IMG/VR virus record: IMGVR_UViG_3300022074_006761
Span: 1 to 40,487 of that record
DNA: 40,487 bases
Reading direction: 5' to 3' (one strand)
Origin: a virus
Under the pieces are notes generated by a model that worked only from the letters and a program-made list of their open reading frames with translations, ran no database searches and had not been told where the DNA came from. A program made the translations under genes and the position numbers. Below, in pieces: positions 15,101 to 40,097 of the stretch; within the stretch, counting starts at the first letter, position 1; every line of letters starts with the position of its first letter.

Positions 15101-17673
15101 CCATTTACTCTTAGTCTGTTTCCATAAAAAGGGTAGTAAGATAAATATTCTCTACTAATCTCTGAGTCGGCATAATCATCAAATTTAATTATTGGTTTTA
15201 ATGAAGGTAAAACAAAATTAAAATTATGACCAGTCATCGGATCAAATGTTATACCTGGATTTGGTGTTCTAAAATTTGGAGAATCTAAATTTAAATAAGC
15301 GGGAGGTATGACAGCTTCATCAGTTAAAGTGAGAAGTGGTTTTGACTTTAAATAAAGTCGACTTCTAGGAGTATTTTTATATTGAAGATCAGGGGGTGTT
15401 GTGTATGCTGTTACATTACCATCACTATCTGTAAGATTGTTATATATAACTGATTGTGGTGTAAATCCTTCACTCGAAGTTACATCAACAGTGCTATCAA
15501 AATTAAATAAATCACCTCTAAATATTAAATAACCCATATCATTTAAAGCTTCATCTTTTATATTTTCTTGATAAGATTTTCCAGTGATAATAGATTTAAG
15601 GTTTTCTAATTTTTTTATGAAAGGCTCTCTTATTCCAGCAGGTACATTACTACCAGCAACAAAGCTATGTACGACCTTTAGTGGGTTTACGTGGCCAGGA
15701 TATTGCTCTGCAAATGTTGTTTCGCTACTAGTAGCTTTTAAGTAAGGTAAACAGTTTTCGTATACATTTATGTATTGATTGTATTCATATTGAGGCGCCA
15801 ATTGTTCTGCTGGTCCAAAAGTTCTAAATAATGTCGATCTTGATGTCCAAACCGATGTCAAAGTTCCAAAACTGTTGCCTATACCTAATCCATGAATAAT
15901 ATTTCCTCTATATTTTCTAGGAGTGTTGCCATCTAATGTATTTTTTGTGTTTGCTTTAAGACCGTTAGCAAATCCTTGCCACGTATTAGATTGATTGTAA
16001 AAACTATCTTGAGAATATATTGATAGCATTAAATAAACAGGACTCTTATACCCAAGGGTTTTAACAGTATCTAAATCTGCAGAATTTGTACCCCTAAAAG
16101 CTGTGGGTATATCTCTTGGAATGTATTGCGTCCTTGCATTGACATAATAATTTACTCCAACCTGATGTGTGTATACATTATAGCCCGCCATTGAGGATAA
16201 AAGAAATTTGATATTATTTTTATCAACTACATTTTTTTTCCAATCTTCGGTTTCTAAAATATATGGGGTATACGTATAACCACCTTCCTTATAATATGCT
16301 GAAGCTGCAGCTACTATATTTAAGTCCTGTCCATACTCAAACCAATGAGCAAGTCTTGGTCCATAACCTTGTGTAGCGGTTGAATTTACTGGAAGGGCGT
16401 CTGCAGTCCCCGCTATTTGTATTTTCGGCCTATAAAACCCAGTAATAATATTTATGGTATCGTTTATACCACTAATCATAAAATCTTTGTATCCAGTACT
16501 TCCCGTAACAAAACTATCACCTTTTAAATCAGCATTTGTTAAAGTAATTGAAGGTTCTATATCAATTATTTGCTCCTCTATCTCAGCATCTGTACCAACA
16601 AAATTTAACATACCTCTTTGAAATGTAGAAGTGTGAGTGGTGTAAGCCCTCGATGTGTTATTCATATAATTTTTGATGTAACTAGCATGTTGCGCATTTA
16701 TTTTCACACTAGACGCATAAGCTCCACCAACATGAAATGGTTTAATAGTATTTGTTCTTCGACAATGAGAGAGCTTACCCATTTTAGTGTTAAATAATTT
16801 TACTAAAGCTCCAGATTGAGGTAAATTATAACTATAAATTACATCTCCAAAACCTTTTTGTCCTTCATCTATTAATCGTTCTCCAGCCTGTTCTGACCTT
16901 CTTATAATTTGTGTATATACAAAATCTGGATTAAAAGCTGTTGGTAAGTAAAAAGCGGTATTTGGAATTTGCCATGGAAACGCTACAGTTGACTTCGTAT
17001 ATTCGTTGCCAACACCAATATCTGTGTCCATAACCCAAACCAATCTCTGTACAGAATTTCCTGCAGCGTCTTCTACAGTCCTTTGAATTCTATAAAATGC
17101 TATTCGATCAGTAAGAGGCAAACCAATCGTAGATTCTAATTGCCAATTGCCTTCATTTGTCAAAACATACTTTCCATTTAAACTACTATAAAGATTGGAA
17201 GTTAAAATAAAACTATCTCCAGCGGTCAAATTTAAATCATCAAAATTTTGATTAACTGGCCTTGTTTCCGAATATGATACAGGTTTGATTGCATCAACTA
17301 GAAAATTTCTTGAATTATTTATTGAAGTAACTTCAAATTGCGGTTCTTCATCAAACGTTTTAACTACAGTATTATCAAAATAAGTAGCTTCCATTGGATC
17401 ATTAGTAGAGAGGCCAAATGTATTTACAAAACCTTCTACTGGCCCTTCTGAAATTAAATCTAAAAGCGTGACTTCAGAGTGTGATTTGTTTCCTATTGTT
17501 GTTTGTGGTGGATTTAATCCTCGATATCTTAACCCCAAACCTTTTTGAACTACAGATAGTCTTACACTTAGTTGGTCAGAAAAAGTATCTGCTTGAGCTT
17601 GCGTTTGAAACGCAAAAATATCTTGACCTAAAATATTACGCTCAAGTGCTTTCTTTCTATAATACTCTTTCAT
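12151..17673 (-). CDS. gpJ-like tail tip/host-specificity protein, paralogue 1 (1840 aa)
   Basis: The protein starts with SEVTLLDLISEGPVEGFVN (near residue 67), the J N-terminal signature. The J core at about 1345-1640 includes YNGDWDGTFKQGWTDNPAW, LLINKVYGIGNRL and KLETEIVNF. It aligns through its core with the 1958-residue paralogue downstream, differing mainly by the lack of the laminin-G-like insertion between the KKVLVP..NY..L segment and the GDWDG segment. A segment near residue 1780 looks like the beta-rich C-terminal repeat of the other copy. It lies right after two gpI-like genes, overlapping the neighbour by one base. Two J genes could form a mixed tip or recognise two receptors. 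Confidence 0.85.
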   Translation of the reverse strand: MKEYYRKKALERNILGQDIFAFQTQAQADTFSDQLSVRLSVVQKGLGLRYRGLNPPQTTIGNKSHSEVTLLDLISEGPVEGFVNTFGLSTNDPMEATYFDNTVVKTFDEEPQFEVTSINNSRNFLVDAIKPVSYSETRPVNQNFDDLNLTAGDSFILTSNLYSSLNGKYVLTNEGNWQLESTIGLPLTDRIAFYRIQRTVEDAAGNSVQRLVWVMDTDIGVGNEYTKSTVAFPWQIPNTAFYLPTAFNPDFVYTQIIRRSEQAGERLIDEGQKGFGDVIYSYNLPQSGALVKLFNTKMGKLSHCRRTNTIKPFHVGGAYASSVKINAQHASYIKNYMNNTSRAYTTHTSTFQRGMLNFVGTDAEIEEQIIDIEPSITLTNADLKGDSFVTGSTGYKDFMISGINDTINIITGFYRPKIQIAGTADALPVNSTATQGYGPRLAHWFEYGQDLNIVAAASAYYKEGGYTYTPYILETEDWKKNVVDKNNIKFLLSSMAGYNVYTHQVGVNYYVNARTQYIPRDIPTAFRGTNSADLDTVKTLGYKSPVYLMLSIYSQDSFYNQSNTWQGFANGLKANTKNTLDGNTPRKYRGNIIHGLGIGNSFGTLTSVWTSRSTLFRTFGPAEQLAPQYEYNQYINVYENCLPYLKATSSETTFAEQYPGHVNPLKVVHSFVAGSNVPAGIREPFIKKLENLKSIITGKSYQENIKDEALNDMGYLIFRGDLFNFDSTVDVTSSEGFTPQSVIYNNLTDSDGNVTAYTTPPDLQYKNTPRSRLYLKSKPLLTLTDEAVIPPAYLNLDSPNFRTPNPGITFDPMTGHNFNFVLPSLKPIIKFDDYADSEISREYLSYYPFYGNRLRVNGDARTDADYYRSSFLRKRGEFFTFTQTRNANSYTFQATEPTDTIPYEVQLALAAITRNPYYISTETSNSVDYNYNLRNISQTSQPHGVQIYDMDSNRYVGSFAYPIYLGPNGEARKPNGEVDMDKVLVQANDPDKNIKILQGVNGNYDVIVTDSFGFKYGNAANPYASHTPAVMNGKYINVSRKTSLRAKYNFDNLSIKYRDGSETQLPLESEVLNSVSISTLLLGPVGTNEQIRTDLQQTGILSGTLSVGAYQGNQSKHFIDGVDFTNQENQRAGADGNIVKHIIHNPYVSKIQVCFLINALNRNVAEELNPFQFRAVETSESLAVRIEIGFENVNYTPIIQDKTYVGRVTDGYSVDTAPYDLPKYNEIVNQFPDLTKQQVIEKCPRYVKVKKLSYETDSPFIQKSIRVSHMNEIVEEKFTYPNSSIIKIRFDSRNYSSIPVRTYTMRLKKVLVPSNYFPLLDNGKDKRFLTNTEKTTVGLQNIYNGDWDGTFKQGWTDNPAWIIYDLLINKVYGIGNRLDSVEDIDVFNLYKIAKYCDAVDNNGNFVGVPDGENGLEPRFSCNVLFNSSQNPYNMINDVASVFNGKCYWDGEAVNFYCDKPEPVAAFFNNENVEDGLFNYEDTANVSHFNLIKVEYKDKKDKFMYKIASVSDEEALRLNGPISTTISAPGATSRGQALRKAKYVMLSNKLETEIVNFATGPEALTMGIGDVIQINDEIKEFEPAFAQVIEIVNDTNFRISKDFDLTKWSTSNPLFVYNTNQTDKGLKETVESIKFGESNFGQVAESQYKVNIGDEVPVLIITDQGDHYLVTHSATFNAKDLHVGSYVGTNLNDSEPLKYRVLSIEPKESNLYAIRATEYRQEKYNLIETQDGDNFGFEDTTKKNIGEPSHVVKTATEPDSFTTNLVQNSAGIRDLEVDIVGSLSGTETHYIVQLISKSPISVREKKVLKGSISNSKYRSSFTFRNIESYGDYEVTVKSIIE

Positions 17674-18401
17674 TAGTAATTAGAAAATAAATTAAATGAA
17701 GAATTTCCAAAAACTTCTTGTATCTTTAATAATGCATTAGATCTTGAAATTTCAGAATTACCTGGCTGTCTATCATTTTCCAAATCAAAAGATGTTAACG
17801 TAGATTGTACAACAGATGAGCCTATTCTCAAAGTTCCATAACCAAGACCGACAGGTTGACCTTGTCTAGTCATATTCACTGGTGAAGAAAAAGCGTAAGA
17901 AAGGTTACTAATACCAACTTCTTGCATCATTTCTTCAACTTTTCCAGCAAAAGGTTCTGTTTCTGGTATCGATGTAGTTAAGTATACAATTCCAGTTATA
18001 ATTAAACCAACACCCAAGGCACCCATTGCTGCAACCGCCCAAACAGGTAAAGCGGGCGCAAAAACAATAGCGGCAACTATCAAAATAACGCCAACAACAA
18101 TTTCCTTAAATTTCTCCCAAACTTTTTTCTGCCCATAAATCGATGGAGCAATGTCTATTGTTTTAATAAATTCTTCTGAATTTTCTTTTAGATTTCCACA
18201 CGAAACTATTTGATCATCATTCGCAATCATTTCATAACACATTCCATTTTTTGTAGCCTGATTTGTTATGTACTTTTTGAAACCTGGAAACAACATTTCT
18301 ATAGCATCTAAAGCATCACTTGGTTTATTTATATTAGCGAATTCAAATTCGCTTCCATAAATTTTAGCTATTTTTCCATGTAATATTATTTTAGTTTTCA
18401 T
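17673..18401 (-). CDS. gpI-like tail assembly protein, copy 2
   Basis: The 242-residue protein begins KIILHGKIAKIYGSEFEF, like the beta-grasp start of lambda gpI, and continues with a PSDALDAIEMLFPGFKKYI block. Hydrophobic residues about 104-145 form two likely membrane-prone helices (VVGVILIVAAIVFAPALPVWAV and a second one after a short gap). Near residues 180-205 a GQPVGLGYGTLRIGSSVV segment matches the end of the other gpI copy. gpI acts in tail-tip assembly before J. It overlaps its neighbours by one base on both sides. The pairing of this copy with one of the J genes is inference. Confidence 0.8.
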   Translation of the reverse strand: MKTKIILHGKIAKIYGSEFEFANINKPSDALDAIEMLFPGFKKYITNQATKNGMCYEMIANDDQIVSCGNLKENSEEFIKTIDIAPSIYGQKKVWEKFKEIVVGVILIVAAIVFAPALPVWAVAAMGALGVGLIITGIVYLTTSIPETEPFAGKVEEMMQEVGISNLSYAFSSPVNMTRQGQPVGLGYGTLRIGSSVVQSTLTSFDLENDRQPGNSEISRSNALLKIQEVFGNSSFNLFSNY

Positions 18402-19054
18402 CAGTAACCTCCTCCTCCACTGTCTTCTTCTCTTGTGTAATCCGTGGCCGCATCATCGTAATTTTGTCCGTAACCGAAATTAACTACATTCTCATCATCA
18501 GATCCATAATTAATATCTGGATCAAATTGAGCGCCAAACGTTGAATCGTAATTTTTTTGACTAACTCCAACAACTTTACTTCCAACTCTCAAATAACCAT
18601 ACCCGATTGGAACCACCTCTCCTTGTTGCGTAGCATTTCCTGGAGACATCATTGAGAATGATTTACCTCCTATATCTAACGTGGCAGTGCCAGCAAATTC
18701 TTCATCTACTGTTGCTAGTTTTGATATGCCGTGTAAAGCTATAGCAGAATTTAATGCCAAACTTGATAAAAATGTACCGCCTGCATAACTTCCTTTTCCT
18801 GCTATCATTGGAGCTATTTCTATTTTATTTATTTTTTTATTTTTAAATACTTCTCCACTTTTTTTCTGTTTTTCTTCATCTACAAAAATTTCATAAAAAA
18901 CTCCATCACTAGCTTGGTTCATTATATGCACTTTAAAACCCTCCTTAATGCAATCTACAGCTTTAACTGCATCAATAGCTTTTTTGATATTTGAAAATTT
19001 ATGTTTTTTACCAAACTTTTTTCCTAAGTCTCCATGTAAAATTATTTCAGTCAT
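18401..19054 (-). CDS. gpI-like tail assembly protein, copy 1
   Basis: The 217-residue protein has the gpI N-terminal fold (IILHGDLGKKFGKKHKF, then AIDAVKAVDCIKEGFKVHIMNQ) and ends in a VVPIGYGYLRVGSKVVG segment that is nearly the same as in the next gene. The middle glycine-rich stretch is only weakly hydrophobic here, unlike the strong double helix of copy 2. The C-terminal 30 residues are acidic with a GGGG tail. It overlaps the JAMM gene by 4 bases and the second copy by one. Together with its twin it shows that the I step of tail assembly is duplicated. Confidence 0.8.
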   Translation of the reverse strand: MTEIILHGDLGKKFGKKHKFSNIKKAIDAVKAVDCIKEGFKVHIMNQASDGVFYEIFVDEEKQKKSGEVFKNKKINKIEIAPMIAGKGSYAGGTFLSSLALNSAIALHGISKLATVDEEFAGTATLDIGGKSFSMMSPGNATQQGEVVPIGYGYLRVGSKVVGVSQKNYDSTFGAQFDPDINYGSDDENVVNFGYGQNYDDAATDYTREEDSGGGGY

Positions 19055-27583: not shown

Positions 27584-27602
27584 AAAAAATGAAAATTTTT
27601 AA

Positions 27603-27625
27603 TCGTTGAAAACCAACGACTTACG
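27603..27625. repeat. Small palindromic motif of the TCGTTG/CAACGA family
   Basis: TCGTTG, a 5-base loop, CAACGA, then CTTACG. The core is the same as in the GC-cored elements at 38016 and 39072. It lies directly before a terminator hairpin. Confidence 0.6.
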
Positions 27626-35893: not shown

Positions 35894-36133
35894 ATGAAAA
35901 AAGATTATTCATTTTACATTGGATACATTACTACTATTGTTCTTGCTATTCTTTTGACACCATTGTATGCAGTTTGCATAACATTGATAAGAAGTTTTGC
36001 AGTATTAATTGATATTATATGGGATTCTTTTACCTTTATGCCTAAGGCTACCTTTGAATATGAGAAGTCTTATGAGAAGAGATATTGGGAAAGAGAACTA
36101 GATAGAATAAACAAAAAATTTAAAGACAATTAG
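35894..36133 (+). CDS. Small membrane protein
   Basis: 79 residues with one or two hydrophobic segments (about 8-40: YIGYITTIVLAILLTPLYAVCITLI, SFAVLIDII) and a charged, Glu/Lys-rich end. No Shine-Dalgarno. Function unknown. Confidence 0.55.
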   Translation: MKKDYSFYIGYITTIVLAILLTPLYAVCITLIRSFAVLIDIIWDSFTFMPKATFEYEKSYEKRYWERELDRINKKFKDN

Positions 36134-36200
36134 CCGAAATTTAAAATAATTTAAATAAATTTAAAAAAATTTGGGGCATATTGGGGGGAATACAAATCGC

Positions 36201-36341: not shown

Positions 36342-36509
36342 ATGCTCGCCAAAAAATATAGTCGCCAAATATTGACTTGGACAAATATGGCTATCGGTTG
36401 TCTTGTCGCATCAATAGTCTTGTTTTTTTGTGGTATGGTATCGCACGGAATATTCTTTGCCGTAGTGTCAAACTCTATGATGAACCTAGCCAAACTAAAA
36501 AAAACATAA
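36342..36509 (+). CDS. 55-residue membrane protein
   Basis: Residues about 16-43 form one or two membrane segments (NMAIGCLVASIVLFFCGMVSH, then IFFAVVSNSM) flanked by basic ends. It starts 4 bases after the 23-residue peptide gene, so it is probably part of the same unit. Function unknown. Confidence 0.5.
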   Translation: MLAKKYSRQILTWTNMAIGCLVASIVLFFCGMVSHGIFFAVVSNSMMNLAKLKKT

Positions 36510-36552
36510 GATGCCAAAATTTAAAAAAATTTAAATAAATTTAAAAAAAAAG

Positions 36553-36580
36553 TTGACATACATAAAACTATCTCTATATT
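36553..36580 (+). promoter_or_regulatory. Leaderless promoter
   Basis: TTGACA at 36553-36558 and TATATT at 36575-36580 (16-base spacer) put the start at the ATG 36588, 35 bases from the box. A phased A-tract (36517-36552) lies directly upstream, like an UP element. Confidence 0.65.
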
Positions 36581-36587
36581 GGGTAGT

Positions 36588-36854
36588 ATGAAAACATTGA
36601 ATAAAGATGGCACACCTCGTAAACAAGGTAGTGGCAGAAGAAAAGGGGCAAACTCATTTGCTCATCTAACATTAGCAGACCTAGAACAATTTTGTGGGTC
36701 AGCTACCCTTATCCCTATTAGTCGTGTATGGCTAGAGAAGATGGGAGCATCAATCACAGAGGCTAACCAAACAAAAGTTTCTGTTTCACAAGAGTCAAAA
36801 GAGGTTGAAGAAAAAATCTCATTTAAAGTTCACAATTTTGTTGACAACAATTAA
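36588..36854 (+). CDS. Small conserved phage protein with basic N-terminus
   Basis: 88 residues: TPRKQGSGRRKGANSFAHLTLADLEQFCG, then IPISRVWLEKMG and an acidic end. This order recalls a small protein of marine phages with an AT-hook-like GRRKG and a SRVWL block. It may bind DNA. An earlier TTG start at 36579 falls inside the -10 and is rejected. Its last 14 bases hold the -35 box of the ATPase gene. Confidence 0.6.
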   Translation: MKTLNKDGTPRKQGSGRRKGANSFAHLTLADLEQFCGSATLIPISRVWLEKMGASITEANQTKVSVSQESKEVEEKISFKVHNFVDNN

Positions 36855-36875: not shown

Positions 36876-37805
36876 ATGAAAACTACCACATATAAAAACC
36901 TCGTAGGTCAGAACGAAGTAAAAAAACAACTGACATTCTATTCAGAAGCACAAAACAAAAGTGGTGTTGCACCATTCTTAATGTTGAGTGGGGCAAAGGG
37001 CTTGGGTAAGACTGAGTTCGCCAAGCGTTATGCTTCTAGTCTCAAGAACCAAGACGGCACTAATCGTGCTTTCCTAGAGATTAACTGCTCTACTATCAAG
37101 AACGCTAATTCATTCTTCGAGCAGATATTTCTACCTATCGTAATGAATAATGAAATTACTATCTTGTTTGATGAAGCTCATATGCTTCCTAAGGACTTGG
37201 TAAATGCTTTCCTTACTATATTCAATACAGAAAAGGGAACATACAAAGAATTTCATCACGCAGAACAAATTTTTCAGTTTGATTTCAAGAAGCAATGTTT
37301 CATCTTTGCTACTACTGAGATGGACAAACTCTTCCCTCCGTTCAAGGACAGATTGACAATCGTGGATTTCCGTCCGTATGCAGTCGAAGAGTTGGGGCAA
37401 ATCATTGGTCTTATCGCATCAGAGATAAAGTTTGGCAAGGGGGTTTTGGACGAAGTCGCAGAGACCACTCGTGGCAATGCTCGTTCAGCAGTAATGAGAA
37501 CCAAAGAGATTATGTTGTATTGTAACAGAGCAAATCAGAATACATATGACTTAAAAGATTGGAAAAAGATGTGTGGTATACTAGACATCAAACCTATGGG
37601 ATTATCCAACCTTGAAGTCGAGCTTCTCAAGATTCTCCAAGAGCGTGGTAATTGTTCGTTACAGATGCTATCAGCAGTAACAGGTATGAGCAGAACTGCA
37701 ATCCAAAAGGAAGCCGAACTTTATCTACTGAAGCGTGGGCTAATGAAGATAAATGGTCAGCGTGAGATAAGTGGTAAAGGTATGAATGTATTAGAAAAGA
37801 TTTAG
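36876..37805 (+). CDS. AAA+ ATPase, RuvB-like
   Basis: The 309-residue protein has Walker A GAKGLGKT (39-46), Walker B ITILFDEAH (94-102), a sensor-1 FATTE (144-148), an R near 159 in DRL as arginine-finger candidate, a sensor-2 RGNARSA (199-205) and a C-terminal winged helix from about 240 (LEVELLKILQE..., then LSAVTGMSRTAIQKE, and KRGLM). This is the layout of RuvB, the motor of Holliday-junction branch migration. RuvA and RuvC are not seen, although the PD-(D/E)XK nuclease at 25118 could resolve junctions. A clamp-loader-like role is the alternative. Confidence 0.75.
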   Translation: MKTTTYKNLVGQNEVKKQLTFYSEAQNKSGVAPFLMLSGAKGLGKTEFAKRYASSLKNQDGTNRAFLEINCSTIKNANSFFEQIFLPIVMNNEITILFDEAHMLPKDLVNAFLTIFNTEKGTYKEFHHAEQIFQFDFKKQCFIFATTEMDKLFPPFKDRLTIVDFRPYAVEELGQIIGLIASEIKFGKGVLDEVAETTRGNARSAVMRTKEIMLYCNRANQNTYDLKDWKKMCGILDIKPMGLSNLEVELLKILQERGNCSLQMLSAVTGMSRTAIQKEAELYLLKRGLMKINGQREISGKGMNVLEKI

Positions 37806-37948: not shown

Positions 37949-38015
37949 AAATAAAGAGTTAATAAGACACATAACCACATATAACATATTATTAAGTTCT
38001 GGTAGTGAAAAGTCA

Positions 38016-38092
38016 TAAGTCGTTGAATATCAACAAGTTGCGGCGCGCGCCTACCCCCCGCCCGCAAGTCATTGATTATCAAGCACTTACGG
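38016..38092. repeat. GC-cored palindromic element, copy 1
   Basis: A left arm TAAGTCGTTGAATATCAAC.. (38016-38043) and a right arm that is roughly its inverted copy (38063-38092) enclose a run of nearly pure G and C (38041-38064). The arms are each near-palindromic with a TCRTTG..TATCAA core. The outer DNA is AT-rich. A second copy is at 39072-39150. The remaining part of the 365-base intergenic region (37806-38170) holds a terminator, the 28-base repeats and another terminator. Confidence 0.8.
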
Positions 38093-38118
38093 ATGTCAAG
38101 CACAAATTTAAAAAAATT

Positions 38119-38157
38119 TAAAAAAAAACTCGCCCTCCGTTATTTTGGAGAGCGAGT
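38119..38157 (-). terminator. Terminator of the DUF932 gene
   Basis: Read on the - strand, ACTCGCTCTCC (38157-38147) pairs with GGAGGGCGAGT (38138-38128), one mismatch, over an 8-base loop, followed by at least 8 T. It lies 14 bases after the gene. Confidence 0.75.
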
Positions 38158-38170
38158 CGTAAGTCTTTGA

Positions 38171-38959
38171 CTAGGAAGCGTTTATGACCTCTGCCACCTT
38201 AGGCGTGCGAGAGTTCGCATAGGTGTCAAGCACAGAGTGAAGCGAGCTTGAACGCTTTGCCGTGTTCGTGAGGTTGCCACGATACACATTCGTGAAAGCG
38301 TTTGAAAGCGACCACAAGTCACGACCCTCGAAGTCCTCGTGTTGAGGTGCGTGCCATTGGTTGACAATGTCAGTCACTTGAGTTTTGGAACAAGCCCCAT
38401 TGCGAAAGCCACGCACGATTAAGTCGTGAGCGATTCTGTCGTCAATCTCGGTTGACTTGTAAGAATCAATTCGCTTCTCGGAAGTAATCCAAGAATCGCA
38501 AAGCTGACCGATAGCACGACCAAGCAAAGACGGCAAGTCACGCATGATGTGCGTAGTGTGCTTGCGACCCAAAACAATCTCATTGTTGAAAATCATATTG
38601 GTGCAAACGAAAGGTGCATCGCCTGCACAGACCATCGCACGAGACGATTTATCGTGTGAGTTGCGAAGCCCAAAGATTGTGCCGACCTCGGCATCGTGCT
38701 TGCGAGCGATACCTTTCACTTGGAACAAGCCGAAGTAGCGTTGCCCATAGCGATGCAAGGTGTGATGCTCTTGAACGATGTCAAGATTTGGTGTGTTAGC
38801 GATAGCCGAACGAAAGTCTTTTACAAGACCATCGTGTGAAACAGGTTGCCATTGTTCAGTAGCCTGTGGTGTTGCAACTTTCTCAACATCTGAGAAGTCG
38901 CTTGCCTCGCCTGCACATACACGCAGGTCGAGTAGTTTTGGATTTAGTATGTTAACCAT
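38171..38959 (-). CDS. DUF932 phage/plasmid-like protein
   Basis: From ATG 38959 the product has 262 residues. The core (FGLRNSHDKSSRAMVCAGDAPFVCTNMIF, then RKHTTHI) is the DUF932 signature, found in phages and plasmids; its function is unknown. An earlier ATG at 38971 lies inside the -10 box, so the later one fits. A sampled 60-base stretch (38221-38280) has about 55% GC, against about 30% in the ATPase gene, which suggests transfer from another source. It has its own promoter and terminator and is bracketed by the palindromic elements. Confidence 0.75.
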   Translation of the reverse strand: MVNILNPKLLDLRVCAGEASDFSDVEKVATPQATEQWQPVSHDGLVKDFRSAIANTPNLDIVQEHHTLHRYGQRYFGLFQVKGIARKHDAEVGTIFGLRNSHDKSSRAMVCAGDAPFVCTNMIFNNEIVLGRKHTTHIMRDLPSLLGRAIGQLCDSWITSEKRIDSYKSTEIDDRIAHDLIVRGFRNGACSKTQVTDIVNQWHAPQHEDFEGRDLWSLSNAFTNVYRGNLTNTAKRSSSLHSVLDTYANSRTPKVAEVINAS

Positions 38960-38966
38960 ACATAAG

Positions 38967-38994
38967 AACATAGACTATTTGATGTGGTTGTCAA
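38967..38994 (-). promoter_or_regulatory. Leaderless promoter of the DUF932 gene
   Basis: On the - strand, TTGACA (38994-38989), 16-base spacer, TATGTT (38972-38967). The ATG at 38959 is 35 bases from the box. Confidence 0.6.
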
Positions 38995-39071
38995 CTAATA
39001 AAACAAAAAAAAGTAAAAAAAGTTTGCTGTAAAGTTGGCACGCTTCTTGTCTGTGAGAAGGCTTAGAATTA

Positions 39072-39150
39072 CGTAAGTCGTTGATTATCAACGAGTTGCG
39101 GCGGCCCCACGGCCCGCGCCCGCAAGTCACTGATTATCAGTTACTTACGG
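39072..39150. repeat. GC-cored palindromic element, copy 2
   Basis: Left arm CGTAAGTCGTTGATTATC.. (39072-39101), GC core (39098-39122) and right arm (39121-39150) repeat the layout of copy 1. Left arms agree at 26 of 28 bases and right arms at 26 of 30; cores differ. The 38972-39182 region holds this element and the DUF932 promoter and no visible gene. Confidence 0.8.
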
Positions 39151-39395: not shown

Positions 39396-40097
39396 TTAAG
39401 AGCATTCTAAAACAAAACCTGTTTCATCTTTTTTTGCAAGCCCTTTTTCAACCAAGCCAACAATTTTATTTTGTCCGTCCAAGAATCTCAAGTCGGTTTC
39501 GTCTCCGTCAATCACTTCACGACCTTGCCAAGTTTTTGGCAAACCATCACGAAAGACACAAGCAACATTTGCCCCTAATGAAAGCAATTTTTTTGTTTCG
39601 TTGTCGTTGTCCTCGGCTCTAGAGAAAGTTAAATGATAATTGCTAGGAAGTTTTCCGTTTAAGTATTTCTCAACTCGCTTTACTGATTTAGTATAGTCGT
39701 AAAACTGAACATCGGAAAACATTTCTATAAGTTTAACTCCGTTGAATTTTTGAGATTCCCAAGCAATGTCGCTAGTTAAGTTTAGACGAAAGCAAGGCTT
39801 CATATCTTTCTTACTAGCTAACTTTATTGCGTTGCCAATCTCTTTAACAAGTTGACGCATAAAATTTTCTTTGTCGTTAAAGAATCTTTTTGTTTTTGCA
39901 ATGCGTGAATTTTGAACATTTGAGAATTTGCCACGACCTGCCGTATTTAAGCAAGCCTCGGCACAACCTTTAGAAGCCCAAGCACAAGCATTAAAGCCAC
40001 TTAGGTTAAAAGGTGCAAGGTGTAAACCAAAAGTGATAAAGCCAAGCTTTTCCCCTTTGATAGTTTTAGCGTTTCCGTTATTTAGTAGTTTAGTCAT
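39396..40097 (-). CDS. Phage gp88-like protein
   Basis: The 233-residue protein has the gp88-type N-terminal pattern: GFITFGLHLAPFNLSGFNACAWASKGCAEACLNTAGRG (about 20-56), with three Cys in the C-x6-C-x3-C order that may bind a metal or Fe-S, then SRIAKTKRFF. The middle has RLNLTSDIAWE and YDYTKSVKRVE and the end carries FRDGLPKTWQGREVIDGDETDLRFLD. Such proteins occur in plasmids and phages; the role is unknown, possibly radical-SAM-like or DNA-related. It begins without a leader from its own promoter. Confidence 0.65.
   Translation of the reverse strand: MTKLLNNGNAKTIKGEKLGFITFGLHLAPFNLSGFNACAWASKGCAEACLNTAGRGKFSNVQNSRIAKTKRFFNDKENFMRQLVKEIGNAIKLASKKDMKPCFRLNLTSDIAWESQKFNGVKLIEMFSDVQFYDYTKSVKRVEKYLNGKLPSNYHLTFSRAEDNDNETKKLLSLGANVACVFRDGLPKTWQGREVIDGDETDLRFLDGQNKIVGLVEKGLAKKDETGFVLECS

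Follow-up and report, generated by a model that had tools for sequence, protein, structure and literature searches.

Two-armed repeats with a GC-rich core as candidate unit boundaries within an accessory-gene island of large uncultured tailed phages

In most accounts, phages rearrange their accessory genes by random recombination, with selection acting as the filter. Several kinds of repeated intergenic sequences invite comparison with the locus described here. In T4-type phages the PeSL (promoter early stem-loop) sequences, each containing an early promoter and a stem-loop, are said to have been described by Arbiol et al. in 2010 as "mobile regulatory cassettes" (reference given in PMC4177764). 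Mycobacteriophages carry many short, phage-specific intergenic sites, the stoperators and the extended start-associated sequences (ESAS), which relate to transcription or to start codons and one kind of which consists of inverted repeats separated by a spacer. REPINs, which are extragenic and occur in many copies, end in two conserved palindromes set at a fixed distance, with a less conserved spacer between (PMC3116915), and the integron-type cassette arrays termed CALINs occur in virulent phages (PMC9892861). Within the open-licence literature we found no published description of the elements reported below.

The stretch of DNA analysed (hereafter the window), a linear virus record of 40,487 bases, belongs to a tailed phage, an assignment that rests on its tail proteins, rIIA and a clamp-loader-like gene. 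It carries two elements, each composed of two 27-bp near-palindromes, 49 bp apart from start to start, that flank a 22-nt G/C-rich core. The relevant features are:

27598-27624, no strand: single arm upstream of rIIA, not part of the island, with a terminator hairpin after it
36876-37805, plus strand: clamp-loader-like AAA protein with a RuvB-type C-terminal winged helix; convergent gene bordering the island
38015-38041, no strand: left arm of element 1, a 27-bp near-palindrome
38042-38063, no strand: core of element 1, 22 nt, 91% GC, GGCGCGCGCCTACCCCCCGCCC
38064-38090, no strand: right arm of element 1
38127-38158, minus strand: DUF932 unit terminator with a stem of 12 pairs and a T run
38171-38971, minus strand: DUF932 gene, 266 aa (Pfam PF06067; 35-sequence alignment; model pLDDT 82)
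38967-38994, minus strand: promoter-like site of the DUF932 unit, TTGACA-16-TATGTT
39073-39099, no strand: left arm of element 2
39100-39121, no strand: core of element 2, 22 nt, 95% GC, GGCGGCCCCACGGCCCGCGCCC
39122-39148, no strand: right arm of element 2
39396-40097, minus strand: gp88-like gene of the next unit (phrog_1617, PF17338)

Both elements lie where the initial annotation had placed them, although the cores, which it took to be G/C-only, are nearly but not entirely so. Apart from these two cores, no 22-nt stretch of the window reaches 20 G/C, and 100 mononucleotide shuffles of the window produced none. The smaller copy of the core claimed at 27603 is actually a single arm, then a terminator hairpin, and a lone arm with a terminator-like hairpin also occurs in the closest relative (G001:49705). 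That relative, at 98% protein identity, has both window elements and two more, and 205 of its bases are absent from the window about 35 bases past element 2. The window pair forms the edge of an array of up to about 15 elements. Elsewhere in the window, a AATTTAAA motif with 10-base spacing is repeated in intergenic regions (36122-36169, 36502-36549 and 38099-38126), with many copies also in a relative (L014/L009). A small conserved protein of 84-91 aa, for which no family match was obtained, is encoded at 36579-36854 beside the clamp-loader-like gene and was present in 9 of 11 records compared, and a gene at 459-1223 codes for an arginyl-tRNA-protein transferase C-terminal domain (ATE_C), unusual in a phage.

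The gene bracketed by the two elements narrowly qualifies for the Pfam DUF932 family (24.4 bits against the curated cut-off of 23), and the DUF932 model matches further viral DUF932 proteins. Its start codon is uncertain, an internal ATG at 38959 being better suited to the promoter. The initial annotation rightly gave this gene its own promoter (the promoter-like site at 38994-38967) and terminator (the 12-pair stem at 38158-38127) as well as a higher GC content, which is 49% against 34% for the window. Its further view of the region as a small mobile or recombining cassette can be kept only in part: the elements do appear to delimit recombining units, as detailed below, but the DUF932 gene has not recently moved. 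A search of relatives for the presence or absence of the cassette found DUF932 with elements on both sides at the equivalent locus of G001, of G007 and also of G010, a divergent relative, and, since DUF932 is GC-richer than its neighbors in 36 of 36 phages, high GC is a property of the gene itself; on this synteny and composition we reject a recent insertion.

DUF932 is the commonest gene family of the arrays (36 loci) and was detected in 19 of the 27 long records tested; among the eight that lack it, the array sits at a contig end in six, and another carries no element. Relatives with 31-50% identity are present in five other contigs devoid of elements, so DUF932 is not sufficient, and we consider it a candidate partner of the elements by co-occurrence only. 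Its predicted structure returned zero matches below E 0.1 against the PDB, RecT, Rad52 and RecA-like proteins being absent among the structure matches listed; the C-terminal domain of TnsE, the best entry of a second look (Z 7.2), was rejected as the fold, as it falls inside the chance range. The nearest isolates by DUF932 are Salinibacter phages, at 26.5% identity. In one of them, M8CRM-1, the DUF932 relative lies directly 5' of a gene for a predicted phage-type endonuclease/recombinase, with an SSB and an ERF annealase nearby, which hints at a recombination context.

We then assembled the wider element family. Loci were found with a pattern that required one copy per locus to show the arm consensus and five G/C at the start of the core; a looser scan of the fetched loci, retaining elements with a core of at least 55% GC, recovered 464 elements from 117 loci, mainly in uncultured phage contigs. 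In viral contigs the pattern matched more than 119 stretches, whereas bacterial and archaeal genomes totalling 257 Gb yielded five. Because in each of two metagenome-assembled genomes (MAGs) the arm matches are confined to one small contig, the sites look phage-specific and the two contigs look like stray phage sequence. The spacing between arms is constant within each genome and, in the histogram taken before the GC filter, peaks at 50 (count 261), 42 (80), 41 (39), 48 (32) and 49 (28).

Many genes are common to the eight largest carrier records, among them those for the terminase, capsid-region proteins, a helicase, a primase, PhoH and a sigma-70-region-2-like protein; these records hence constitute a related group. 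Comparison of DUF932, the clamp loader and the terminase revealed no close isolate, the latter two being at most about 26% identical to those of any phage in the collection. The sigma-70 region 2-like protein (G007:76278-76949, with orthologues in all eight large records) adjoins a zinc-ribbon protein and PhoH and is a possible phage sigma factor, its score lying below the Pfam cut-off. In the whole records examined, from genomes of 100-200 kb, the elements occupy a single island of about 5-15 kb with a GC content above that of the remaining genome; examples are ten elements in 8.5 kb in G007 and nine in 10.3 kb in G010. The exception is G017, with elements near both ends of its 147,748-base record; it also has two DUF932 copies (17643-18407 and 141972-142736), which could reflect terminal redundancy or duplication. 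Among the island cargo at several loci (families F17, F29 and F5) are a phage lysozyme, a cell wall hydrolase and a protein resembling gp82 of mycobacteriophage L5.

The gene blocks that the elements set apart comprise from one to about six genes. With gene calls made as simple ORFs on records that are fragments, terminators were predicted in 67 of 255 gaps between a gene end and an element, as opposed to 7 on the opposite strand and 0 after shuffling, and promoters in 62 of 299 gaps between an element and a gene start, as opposed to 22 and 5, respectively. Terminators before the elements and promoters after them place the elements outside transcripts. The 384 elements for which both neighbors were called comprise 239 in tandem, 85 in convergent and 60 in divergent settings, and element direction as read from the core has no tie to gene strand. 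This range of strand settings, together with the position outside transcripts, counts against a terminator or messenger role. About half of the strand switches carry an element, counts that are blurred by spurious ORFs. We likewise rejected an intrinsic terminator, as A-rich or mixed sequence follows the element ends and separate terminators precede the elements, and an RNA element, since Rfam matches were sub-threshold and at chance level and the elements lie outside transcripts.

Comparison between genomes indicates that these blocks behave as units. For conserved gene pairs, the fraction of comparisons that keep adjacency is 0.785 within units against 0.473 across elements, and where one-sided homology extends all the way to an element and ends there, the partner has an element at that point in 145 of 160 cases. 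Between L090 and L124 one unit is absent from the former while the flanks are 98-99% identical, and the element at the joint (L090.2) is chimeric: its left flank, left arm and the left part of its core derive from L124.2, and the right part of its core and its right flank from L124.1. L113.4 is likewise chimeric with respect to G007.3 and G007.4, at a different unit. Across 54 junction cases, a noisy set in which some partners hold repeated units, the left arm is nearer to the left parent by 35:16 and the right arm nearer to the right parent by 28:18. Clean chimeric elements are few, about four, and the identity profile across one-sided elements declines gradually, with no sharp crossover point on average. 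An apparent insertion in L065.3/L085 proved on inspection to be a plain one-to-one match, and the enrichment of breakpoints at element edges, being partly an alignment bias, was not used as main evidence. These sequence comparisons show the boundaries, the autonomy of many units, their shuffling and a few chimeric junctions. Counting against a special role of the elements, phage operon borders are exchanged also where no special elements exist, and the elements could mark borders for a different reason, with recombination as a by-product.

The two parts of the element evolve differently. Identity between orthologous elements is 93% for the arms, 87% for the core and 90% for the flanks, and C-G changes make up 65% of core substitutions against 22% in the arms and 11% in the flanks, pointing to a core whose G/C composition is kept while its sequence drifts; we infer that it is probably maintained for composition, not for sequence. 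Some orthologous cores match better when reversed with the arms in place, most clearly L065.2/L132.1; two cases pass a strict filter, and core inversion may be taken as a lead. Within the arms no positive covariation was detected, and the arm symmetry therefore resembles a dimer-binding site more than a selected hairpin.

The inner half-sites are identical in just 1 of 319 elements, whereas the genome pool predicts 29. A first test of arm 1-arm 2 pairing mixed element directions in its shuffles, which inflated the expectation; in direction-free tests the half-sites within an element still differ more than draws from the pool. Selection against hairpins between the arms was nevertheless set aside, as descent can account for the difference through an arm polarity that is constant per genome, a caution that applies equally to the core counterpart of this test. 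Both arms of an element share their polarity, and in many genomes it is constant along the array irrespective of gene strand (12/13 in L163, 10/10 in both G007 and L097), with a positive z in 37 of 41 genomes and a maximum of 5.9.

Based on these observations we propose, with a probability of roughly 55%, that the elements are recombination-prone sites at the unit boundaries of an accessory-gene island carried by a clade of large, uncultured tailed phages. Each unit would be an autonomous block of a promoter, one to about six genes and a terminator, with an element outside the transcript on either side; because every boundary has the same element of about 70-80 bp, units could be deleted, gained or exchanged between elements. 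Palindromic arms, the genome-constant spacing and the phage-specific sites suggest that a phage-encoded protein may bind each arm as a dimer. The recombination itself would be general rather than site-specific, and probably of the UvsX type: searches of 32 records turned up neither a recombinase of the tyrosine, serine or Y1 type nor an ERF annealase, whereas 11 of them have a RecA/UvsX-like match, that of G007 being typed as UvsX-like by PHROG, and this distribution favours a general process using machinery that many carriers encode.

Two other readings each strike us as rather unlikely. First, a phage-encoded repressor, activator or silencer might bind both arms at their fixed distance and control the adjacent promoters; units would then carry the site out of need for that control, with shuffling as a secondary outcome. 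The palindromic arms, their constant spacing, the phage-specific sites and the position ahead of promoters where junctions are tandem or divergent would all suit such a regulator, but the 85 elements between convergent genes have no promoter to control, and arm polarity tracks genome direction instead of gene strand. Second, and with similarly tentative standing, a phage protein, possibly DUF932 itself, could bind the paired arms as a complex with fixed geometry and so perform a dedicated cassette exchange, the core serving as an exchange zone whose composition is kept and whose sequence and direction are free; were this true, it would amount to an integron-like building of accessory arrays without an integrase.

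We regard as improbable that the elements are sites for replication, packaging, partition or DNA topology (origin-like, centromere-like or supercoil barriers) gathered in one region. Their clustering in one island and their constant polarity along the genome whatever the gene strand would be in keeping with this, as would a GC-rich core presumably resistant to unwinding. However, copies are confined to unit borders, in a number that depends on how many units there are, and direct repeats preserved through recombination should show a constant polarity just as well. Either a replication or a regulatory role could also coexist with shuffling.

Still less probable are selfish dispersed repeats, REPIN- or MITE-like, inserted between genes: paired palindromic ends around a variable spacer of constant length do recall REPINs (PMC3116915), but the Y1 transposase (RAYT, PF01797) had no match in the 32 incomplete records, the arms lack hairpin covariation, and the elements are island-restricted and keep their position beside DUF932 in divergent phages. 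Finally, we consider it very improbable that the units form a CALIN with the elements as attC sites, as the one element per border of a gene-unit array might suggest, given that the R-box pair RYYYAAC...GTTRRRY is found at element ends in 0 of 489 elements, that no tyrosine recombinase was found in 32 fragmentary records (CALINs lack the integron integrase by definition), that the arms are without the covariation expected of a folded attC, that units are multi-gene and on either strand, and that four scanned record stretches from three CALIN-bearing phages contain no such elements.

Hundreds of elements mark the joints in many uncultured phages, making module borders readable from sequence, allowing the gain and loss of units to be dated and permitting a cassette-by-cassette catalogue of the accessory repertoire. 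A core with changing sequence but constant G/C composition is, moreover, an unusual constraint that calls for an explanation.

Among described systems, attC/CALIN arrays (PMC9892861) share with these islands gene units separated by related sites with inverted repeats and a variable centre, but here core length is constant per genome and gene strand is independent of element direction; the missing R boxes and absent hairpin pairing refute membership. REPINs likewise have paired palindromic ends at a fixed distance and extragenic, multicopy placement, whereas the present elements lack compensatory hairpin changes, which excludes them from that class, and are limited to one island and tied to unit borders.

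Unlike the stoperators and ESAS, to which we claim no sequence relation, they also lie between convergent genes. The nearest known kind in role appears to be the PeSL. PeSL sequences have an early promoter and a stem-loop inside, while our elements have promoters and terminators beside them rather than within, and consist of a GC-rich core set between two palindromic arms of fixed spacing. Both, however, are repeated intergenic sequences at unit borders in a plastic region of large phages, to which shuffling by homologous recombination is credited.
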